Assembly (NCBI GenBank): GCA_031288865.1
Contig: JAITQN010000141.1
Span: 1 to 38,650, forward strand
Direction: 5' to 3'
Length of the DNA stretch: 38,650 bases
From: Prevotellaceae bacterium
GTDB lineage: Bacteria > Bacteroidota > Bacteroidia > Bacteroidales > UBA932
Shown: positions 24,158 to 26,628 of the stretch, one piece after another
Position numbering within the stretch: the first letter of the stretch is position 1
How the letters are laid out: each line of letters starts with the position of its first letter
The notes under the pieces: model-generated
Database searches by the model: none
What the model was told of the DNA's origin: nothing
What the model saw: only the letters and a program-made list of their open reading frames with translations
Made by a program: the position numbers and the translations under genes

Positions 24158-24487
24158 TCACTTTCCGCTCGTTTTTATCAATATGCCCTCTTTTTTGATT
24201 TCTTCAATGAATGGATCTCCAGCCTGAAAATGTTCGGTGGGATAGGTTTTTGATTCAATGCGAAGATAAGGTTGTTTTATGCCAATATAAGGGAATAGCC
24301 TTTTGTCTATAAACCCCAATCCGGTGAATTCGTCGGCAACCAATGCCACATCAATATCCGACCATTCGTGTTGTGTGCCTTTGGCAAACGACCCGAACAA
24401 GATAACGGCACGTAGACGAACGCCTCGCCCCTCTATTTCCCGTGCATAGCTTTCAGCTATTTTGATTGCAGCATTTCGAGTAAGCAT
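24158..24487 (-). CDS. MNT-type minimal nucleotidyltransferase (HEPN/MNT pair)
   Basis: A 109-residue minimal nucleotidyltransferase of the NTP_transf_2 class. The signature GSFAKGTQHEWSDIDVALV (about 32-50) carries the Gly-Ser and the paired Asp residues that bind metal and nucleotide. MNT proteins pair with HEPN proteins as toxin-antitoxin or antiviral modules, in some cases inactivating the HEPN partner by adding nucleotides. Its start lies inside the end of the HEPN gene (31-bp overlap), so translation is coupled. Confidence 0.88.
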   Translation of the reverse strand: MLTRNAAIKIAESYAREIEGRGVRLRAVILFGSFAKGTQHEWSDIDVALVADEFTGLGFIDKRLFPYIGIKQPYLRIESKTYPTEHFQAGDPFIEEIKKEGILIKTSGK

Positions 24488-24998: not shown

Positions 24999-25727
24999 TT
25001 ACGATTTATCCTTAACGCATCTAACCTGTAGACCGGCAAATCGGTCATTGTAGTGCCATCCGGTGTGTCCCCATATAGTAATGCACGATATTGCAAATTT
25101 CGGATAGCGCTCATCAGCATCAGACGACCAGTATCTGGTAGCATGATATACACCACGTATTCTATCTGGGAGGGCAAAACCGCCATAACCCCAAACGGCG
25201 CCAAACGTATTGAGCGTAGTTTGTGTTTCGCCGGATAAATATGACGTCAGGTCTTCAAAGTCGGTCTTCGTAGGCACGCGCCACGGTGAGGGACACATCA
25301 CAGCCTTGTTTGCGTTCACATACGGCCAGTTGTAATAATAATAGGTCTTCCCGGTTTCGGAGTTGGTATAGCTGCGGCATTGCGGCTCGGTATCGCTTTC
25401 TTCAAAAGTTTTTTTGTCACATTCCGGGCAATGAACGGCGTCGCTCCACGTTTGGTTGCCGAATGTCCACGCTTGGTCGCTGGCGAAATAGTGTGAGGCC
25501 CCGGCTTTTTCATTGTCGCCACTCTTGCAGCCGGCAATCGCTGCCGCGACGAGGAGAACGGCAAGTGCAGAAACATTTTGCGCGCTTGCAGAAACATTTT
25601 GCGCGCTTGCAAAAACATTTTGCGCGCTTGCAGAAACCTTCTGCGCGTTTGCAGAAACCTTCTGCGCGTTTGCAGAAACATTTTGCGCGTTTGCAGAAAT
25701 CTCCTGTGTGAAAATTGATTTGTTCAT
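24999..25727 (-). CDS. FISUMP-domain lipoprotein with heptad-repeat N-region
   Basis: A 242-residue predicted lipoprotein, using the ATG that gives MNKSIFTQEIS (a TTG three codons upstream is the only alternative). Residues 11-52 are six imperfect heptads of the type S-A-x-A-Q-x-V, encoded by a 21-bp DNA repeat. A hydrophobic stretch SALAVLLVAAAIAGC follows, whose AIAGC is a good lipobox. The signal peptide therefore has an N-region of about 50 residues, far longer than usual. The mature part carries a FISUMP domain: CPSPWRVPTKTDF, YWSSDADERYP, and the ending GLQVRCVKDKS. The ligand is unknown. The start codon lies in an 18-bp inverted repeat shared with the divergent pseudogene at 26021, and a consensus promoter about 300 bp upstream (26037-26067) points at this gene. 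Confidence 0.82.
   Translation of the reverse strand: MNKSIFTQEISANAQNVSANAQKVSANAQKVSASAQNVFASAQNVSASAQNVSALAVLLVAAAIAGCKSGDNEKAGASHYFASDQAWTFGNQTWSDAVHCPECDKKTFEESDTEPQCRSYTNSETGKTYYYYNWPYVNANKAVMCPSPWRVPTKTDFEDLTSYLSGETQTTLNTFGAVWGYGGFALPDRIRGVYHATRYWSSDADERYPKFAISCITIWGHTGWHYNDRFAGLQVRCVKDKS
25566..25691. repeat. 21-bp tandem repeat (six units) inside FISUMP lipoprotein gene
   Basis: Six contiguous 21-bp units start at 25566, 25587, 25608, 25629, 25650 and 25671, with a decayed seventh at 25692-25712. On the plus strand each begins TGCARAAAC and ends GCGCGYT. They fall into two subtypes (GCGCGCT in units 1-3, GCGCGTT in units 4-6), which indicates recent local duplication. All frames on both strands are open. 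In the gene frame they encode the heptads before the lipobox. Confidence 0.9.
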
Positions 25728-25736
25728 CCCAGACAA
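25719..25736. repeat. Left arm of an 18-bp perfect inverted repeat
   Basis: TTTGTTCATCCCAGACAA on the plus strand; its exact reverse complement is at 26012-26029, 275 bp away. This arm contains the ATG of the FISUMP lipoprotein on the minus strand. Confidence 0.9.
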
Positions 25737-26011
25737 AATTGCTAACGACGAAAGTGGCGCAGGCCGCGGGTTTTAGGGTTAGGTGAAAAAAGGAGAGGGG
25801 ATGAATAGAGTAAGAATAACAGGATAAAAATCGATAAAAAATTGATAAAAAGCCGTCACAGCAACACAAATTGACGAGTGGGAAGAAAAAGGGGAAGAAA
25901 AAAAATATAAAAATCCTGAAAGTCAATAATAGCAACAATCGACCTTACTTATTATATAAAATATAAAAAAACTAAATAATGATTATTAATCTGAGGGATA
26001 AAAGCACTGAA

Positions 26012-26029
26012 TTGTCTGGGATGAACAAA
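26012..26029. repeat. Right arm of the 18-bp perfect inverted repeat
   Basis: TTGTCTGGGATGAACAAA on the plus strand, containing the ATG (26021-26023) of the divergent FISUMP pseudogene. The 275 bp between the arms is AT-rich and has no gene and no full TAnnTTTG promoter. Confidence 0.9.
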
Positions 26030-26575
26030 ACGAAAACAAAGGTAAGAAAGAATTTGGAAAGTGCAAAAAATGAGCCTCTTTTTACCCTCGAAGTGCAATC
26101 GGGCGGGGGAACGGCACACTAACGCTGATGTTGTTCACCTTGCCGGCTTGTGGCCTCTCTGCACAAAATGCTGGTGGAGTCACCCTGTCTAACTATAAGG
26201 CGCAGGCCGGACCGCGGTGACGGCAACGGTGCAACGGCACCCTGCGGGTTCAACGGTCGACTTTCCGGAATTTGATCCCTGTACGGGTTATACCCCCGGC
26301 GCTACGGCCGCTACGTGGACGCTGGTCGACCGTCGGGAGAGCAATAATGTGCAGTCATATAAGGTGCGGCTGATGCATGACGGCCGTTATTGGATGGTGC
26401 AGGATTTAAAGTTCGGGGACAAGTGCAGGGACAAGACACCTACTATTGGACTAGTACGTACCACAGTAATAACTACGTGTTCGTCCTGCACTTCTACGGT
26501 AGCTACTTAAGCTCCGGCACAGGCGCCAGCTCCAAGGAAATCGGTCACTCAGTGCGTTGCATCAGGAACTATTAA
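26021..26575 (+). pseudogene. Frameshifted FISUMP-domain gene remnant
   Basis: Four reading-frame pieces together resemble one FISUMP protein. From ATG 26021 the first piece reads MNKTKTKVRKNLESAKNEP and stops soon after a G5 run (26105-26109). The next frame gives a signal-like TLTLMLFTLPACGLSAQNAGG and VTLSNYKAQAG, aligning with AAQNGITISEFKVASG of the gene at 16405-17424. One base is missing near 26210-26211, after which TAVTATVQ continues in a third frame through DGRYWMVQDLKFGD. A last shift falls at a duplicated GGGACAAG (26416-26423 and 26428-26435), followed by TYYWTSTYHSNNYVFV and the closing GHSVRCIRNY. The middle of the domain (CPxxWRVP) is missing, so there is also an internal deletion. 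It is divergent from the intact lipoprotein and shares its start region. Confidence 0.7.
26037..26067 (-). promoter_or_regulatory. Consensus promoter pointing at the FISUMP lipoprotein
   Basis: On the minus strand TTTG (26064-26067), exactly 19 bp, then TACCTTTG (26037-26044): a perfect -33/-7 match, located inside the pseudogene. Transcription would start near 26030, so the right inverted-repeat arm would be the first part of the mRNA, with an untranslated leader of about 300 nt before the ATG at 25727. Confidence 0.65.
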
Positions 26576-26628
26576 ACCGGTTGGGGCGTAAAAACATCAA
26601 AAGATATTGCAAAACTTGTTTTTTTTCG

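Follow-up and report, generated by a model that had tools for sequence, protein, structure and literature searches.

The segment between positions 25719 and 26029 of the 38,650-nucleotide stretch of Prevotellaceae DNA analysed here (the window) is, judging from comparison with related sequences, very probably an invertible 5'-leader segment that lies behind a fixed promoter and is one of a family of such elements in the genus. Comparison across loci and genomes establishes the element family itself, a rule that governs its spacers, inversion in the past, a recombinase gene enclosed by the same arms and a promoter outside them. Taken together, the elements look like a multi-gene ON/OFF switch, not like an RNA trick over one start codon.

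The inverted repeat and its genes

A preliminary description of this DNA had placed two exact reverse complements, 275 bp apart, at 25719-25736 and 26012-26029, each with an ATG followed by AACAAA. The sequence agrees, and ATGAACAAA is present in both arms. The proposed promoter, TTTG-19-TACCTTTG, is likewise exact on the minus strand (26064-26067 and 26037-26044). In the whole window this is the sole exact 18-bp inverted pair within 600 bp, where about 0.0003 would be expected by chance. The features of the locus are as follows.

24999..25727, minus strand: FISUMP-domain lipoprotein gene, the presumed switched gene
25566..25699, minus strand: 21-bp tandem array of 6.4 copies, in frame a heptapeptide repeat SANAQNV, before the lipoprotein signal sequence
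25719..25736, plus strand: putative gene-side recombination arm, in which the FISUMP reading frame has its ATG
25737..26011, minus strand: putative invertible interior of 275 bp; as now oriented, its transcribed (minus) strand is rich in C/T and poor in G
25797..25816, minus strand: internal motif pair with 11 bp spacing, candidate arm-type or accessory sites
25891..25899, minus strand: internal motif TTCTTCCCC, candidate arm-type or accessory site
26012..26029, minus strand: putative promoter-side recombination arm, reading TTTGTTCATCCCAGACAA on the minus strand, with half-sites and the spacer ATCCC
26037..26067, minus strand: fixed promoter TTTG-19-TACCTTTG, which lies outside the segment and is directed through it to the FISUMP gene
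26217..26577, plus strand: broken FISUMP-like remnant with stops and frame changes, where the genome-wide FISUMP search gives no family match

The two arms had been described as the starts of divergent FISUMP genes, which is correct for the left side only. The left gene encodes a lipoprotein that matches PF09603 at 40.9 bits, above the cut-off, while TIGR02145 stays under its cut-off. The right side is a remnant: the frame from the ATG at 26021 stops after 33 codons, and FISUMP-like pieces are split over different frames with stops. The 21-bp array, absent from the earlier account, is fused in frame to the left gene. A further proposal, that the repeat is a duplicated start region of a paralogue family and the 18-mer a FISUMP family motif, is refuted: the genome has 16 FISUMP matches, and the 18-mer is found only at these two sites, with up to two mismatches allowed.

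An Rfam scan of the window region gave no meaningful match. Next to the FISUMP gene lies a gene for an MntA-like nucleotidyltransferase (24158-24487, under the family cut-off).

A dispersed family of two-armed elements

When the genome of the window was searched with the whole intergenic region, similar leaders were found at C73, C123, C161, C131 and C62; an inverted repeat is present in the leader at C73 too, but its sequence differs. The end-to-end pairing and the similar loci C73 and C123 initially suggested a conserved structured RNA, an idea that was dropped once inverted copies appeared.

The arms follow the consensus TTTGACY-N5-RGTCAA, and the hits pair as inverted repeats about 150-370 bp apart. 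With one mismatch allowed there are 27 forward and 26 reverse matches in the genome of the window, against 1 and 2 for a reversed control pattern. Three congeners (G001, G002 and G004) show a similar enrichment, as does G018, which belongs to a different genus; most of the taxonomic family's other members are near background. Such a family can be found by pattern because its half-sites are common and its spacers locus-specific. The set studied here consists of 29 small two-armed elements from four genomes of one genus (15 of them in the genome of the window), which together with two 1.5-kb recombinase segments make 31 arm pairs; being made by pattern, this census may be incomplete. The window's right arm is an exact inverted copy of its left arm, and the pair fits only loosely (TTTGTTC/CAGACAA) the consensus that is common to the 30 other pairs.

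The spacer of 5 bp occurs in 25 distinct types among the 31 pairs, and it is identical within each pair except at C123, whose two unequal spacers are a point against our reading. When C123 is left out, none of the 38 within-pair mismatches falls in the spacer, while about 10 would be expected if they were evenly spread. Instead they sit in the half-sites, and most of them could not pair even as G-U. At the level of sequence, palindromic half-sites common across loci, combined with a spacer identical within each pair, are the signature of tyrosine-recombinase core sites. A specificity rule would follow, which is directly testable: with the same recombinase, different spacers give no cross-recombination.

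These mismatches also bear on the proposal that the 5' end of the RNA masks its own start codon, that is, that the end of the transcript pairs around the start codon and blocks translation without any inversion of DNA. The 18-bp duplex does dominate the predicted fold (-56.1 kcal/mol, z -2.98), and the arms vary together between loci, as a helix would. However, mismatches that spare the spacer and are mostly non-pairing changes fit strand exchange in DNA and do not fit an RNA helix. Further, only at the window is the start codon within the arm; at other loci the gene starts downstream, often past an array. The ATG inside the window arm is regarded as a local accident, and the duplex would be the same in either orientation of the segment.

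The genes behind the elements include SusC, lipoprotein and other genes. At several elements an array with a locus-specific unit, often of 21 bp, lies between the gene-side arm and the gene (window 25566-25699; extracts L030 at 1061-1400, L076 after 1830, L080 and L081 before the arm, L206, L213 and L215). Members of a family of small proteins that recurs between loci (MSGKDFIPSKDQTF.., MAKTFPVKEADFLAF..) come after the array in several cases; one member, at C73, was searched against Pfam and had no match. The window also has a 41-bp tandem array at the start of the contig (19-240), of the same type as the array adjoining the C123 element. That the switches are followed by tandem arrays and genes for surface proteins suggests a part in surface variation.

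Reversed interiors and the recombinase

The leaders of two SusC genes, G002:C118 and G004:C76, are orthologous, with a promoter flank that is 82% identical and a gene-side flank that is 90% identical, both in the same orientation. Their interiors align at 84% identity over 243 nt only after reverse complementation; the inverted alignment scores 290 and the direct one 19, and the best of 200 shuffles reaches 22. In the genome of the window, C68 and C9 have promoter flanks that are 94% identical and interiors that are inverted (97% over 123 nt), with the proviso that C68 lies at the end of a contig and could represent a single side of an element with two promoters, as at C167. At C131 of the same genome the promoter and array flanks are in the usual order and the interior is inverted (60 against 20, shuffles at most 26). 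As read from these alignments, inversion has happened in the element family.

Every interior among the 29 elements is C-rich and G-poor on one strand. In a hand tally this strand points towards the gene at 17 loci and the G/A-rich strand at 10. The two undecided elements, C167 and G001:C168, have a promoter on both sides, both pointing in (they are found at 1835-2200 and 1640-1870 of their extracts). The window copy belongs with the majority, its C-rich strand running towards the gene, and its interior is 68% identical to that of C9 in the same orientation, with a C/G ratio of 1.94. Both orientations between conserved flanks are thus seen between species and between loci, but not at the window locus. 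There, the orthologous loci in G001, G002 and G004 have the flavin-reductase gene and no element beside it, so an inverted orthologue of the exact window locus is absent.

At G002:C153 and G004:C171, a tyrosine recombinase gene lies between the same arms. Both proteins match PF13102 and PF00589 and have a weak, sub-threshold match to Arm-DNA-bind_5. The preliminary description was right that the window contains no invertase; one is present elsewhere in the genome (G000), where a recombinase orthologue, 70% identical, lies at C109. A single degenerate arm is found near it, which is another point against our reading. G000, G002, G004 and G018, all rich in exact arms, have orthologues with at least 50% identity, while G001 has arm pairs and no close orthologue in an assembly that is only 59% complete. 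No flanking inverted repeats of at least 14 bp were found at 22 distant recombinase relatives. We infer that the recombinase acts in trans on the arms of the small elements; many of these, in front of SusC, lipoprotein and other genes, are probably served by the same enzyme.

The recombinase segment at G004:C171 lies between divergent SusC genes and has an outward promoter at one end. Both 1.5-kb recombinase segments (G004:C171, G002:C153) are next to SusC genes, and the one in G004 could alternate transcription between its two SusC neighbours.

The RNA switch does not predict interiors in both orientations, nor does it go with a recombinase gene bounded by the same arms, and we regard it as extremely improbable. 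A second explanation is a non-autonomous, MITE-like mobile element with terminal inverted repeats that has inserted into 5' regions, its orientation being that of insertion. The copies are dispersed, the presence at the window locus is lineage-specific, and at several loci element and promoter have been copied together. However, such spread can be explained by duplication of whole loci, and at orthologous loci both flanks are kept and only the interior is reversed. The terminal repeats vary between loci and agree within each, which transposon ends do not do, and the enzyme within the same arms is a tyrosine recombinase and no transposase. A mobile element is in our judgement very improbable.

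It is a separate matter whether the window copy is active. The segment may be a relic, once inverted and now fixed at this locus, with the N-terminus of the FISUMP protein overrun by the tandem array. The half-sites have diverged, the right-hand gene is broken, and the array stands where a normal signal-peptide start belongs; arms that deviate from the consensus may also be poor substrates, which counts against an active switch. On the other side, the arms are identical over 18 bp despite their drift from the consensus, as continued inversion would make them. We consider a relic unlikely, if worth keeping in mind, and infer from the sequence that the window copy still flips.

Promoter position, proposed mechanism and known switches

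The preliminary description had also suggested an invertible segment of the kind known for phase-variable promoters in Bacteroides. Inverted orthologues, inverted copies in the same genome, the spacer rule and the arm-flanked recombinase all support inversion; what has to be given up is the promoter as the part that turns, since it lies outside. At the 29 small segments 34 TAnnTTTG boxes point inward from outside, against 4.5 in shuffled sequence (maximum 12). A few of these, at -3/-4, coincide in part with the TTTG of the arm itself and are not genuine; 29 remain after their removal, and the count of 34 does not include the right promoter of C71. Inside the segments there are 4 boxes against 9.1 expected. 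The promoter in the window is placed as at most other loci.

For an ordinary Bacteroides-kind invertible promoter, with the promoter inside the segment, speak the same phylum, the same kinds of genes (SusC, lipoproteins) and the outward promoter that the 1.5-kb recombinase segment does have at one end. With boxes below chance inside the small segments and strongly enriched outside, pointing in, this explanation is quite improbable here. As the promoter is fixed outside and points in, inversion of the segment would swap the 5' leader while the promoter itself stays put.

The mechanism that we propose is the following. A tyrosine recombinase encoded elsewhere, the C109 orthologue, would recombine the two window arms; the conserved half-sites would bind it, and strands would be exchanged within the pair-identical 5-bp spacer. 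The promoter at 26037-26067 would stay outside and always read into the segment, so that inversion would exchange about 275 nt of 5' leader for the reverse complement ahead of the FISUMP lipoprotein gene. Transcription or translation would get through to the gene with one leader but not with the other, giving phase-variable expression. In this scheme orientation presumably alters expression, with one of the two leaders being ON.

What the leader contains offers some hints. All 29 elements contain the motif TTC[TA]T[ACT]C[CT]C, with 79 copies on the C-rich strand and none on the other (2.7 in shuffled sequence). Neighbouring copies are in many cases separated by 11-12 bp, and distances of about 110 and 200 bp from one arm are frequent. 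The motif also lies near one arm of the recombinase segments, which suggests a role in recombination; perhaps these are arm-type or accessory-protein sites, and a function as rut sites is possible. A rut predictor picks out 16 of 29 elements in one orientation and 0 of 29 in the other, but also 186 of 280 ordinary pieces of the window, and does not discriminate. A simple scan found no intrinsic terminator on either strand of 25719-26029. Our tentative guess, with a modest chance of being right, is that Rho-dependent termination makes the present, C-rich leader the OFF state. A genus-wide version is more doubtful: one tyrosine recombinase would flip dozens of 5'-leader segments, locus-specific spacers would confine each to itself, and the one-sided TTCTTMCCC repeats, 11-12 bp apart, would serve both as arm-type sites and for orientation-dependent Rho loading in the RNA, that is, as an invertible Rho terminator in Bacteroidota.

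The closest likeness in layout is to the RecV-type cwpV and flagellar switches of Clostridioides difficile, where a short segment lies between inverted repeats and a tyrosine recombinase acts on several loci. In the cwpV switch the promoter is fixed upstream of the segment and an intrinsic terminator has been proposed (PMC2784873), and in the flagellar (flg) switch Rho stops the OFF transcript (PMC7446863). The promoter is thus outside, as here, and in C. difficile orientation acts after transcription initiation (PMC2784873, PMC7446863). C. difficile belongs to another phylum, however, and unlike cwpV the window segment showed no intrinsic terminator-like site in the simple scan. Here we also find many segments in one genus, with common half-sites, locus-specific spacers and an internal repeated motif, and the effect on expression is a predicted one.

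In Bacteroides fragilis, the master invertases Mpi, Tsr0667 and Tsr19 control several or many distant regions, among them SusC/SusD clusters and surface structures (PMC4747536). Here too, in another member of the Bacteroidales, one recombinase probably acts on many distant invertible regions. The regions of B. fragilis turn promoters or shuffle genes (PMC4747536), whereas here only the 5' leader turns. Surveys of gut invertons of the PhaseFinder type describe Bacteroidota invertons that lie mainly between genes, close to surface genes, and sort into groups by homology of their repeats (PMC11892184). In the Bacteroides groups highlighted there the Bacteroides promoter motif is inside the segment (PMC11892184), while here it is depleted inside. 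In logic the present elements resemble these Bacteroidota systems; they differ in that their promoter stays outside the segment. Searches for invertible promoters would miss the class of phase-variable 5'-leader switches that these elements point to in Bacteroidota.
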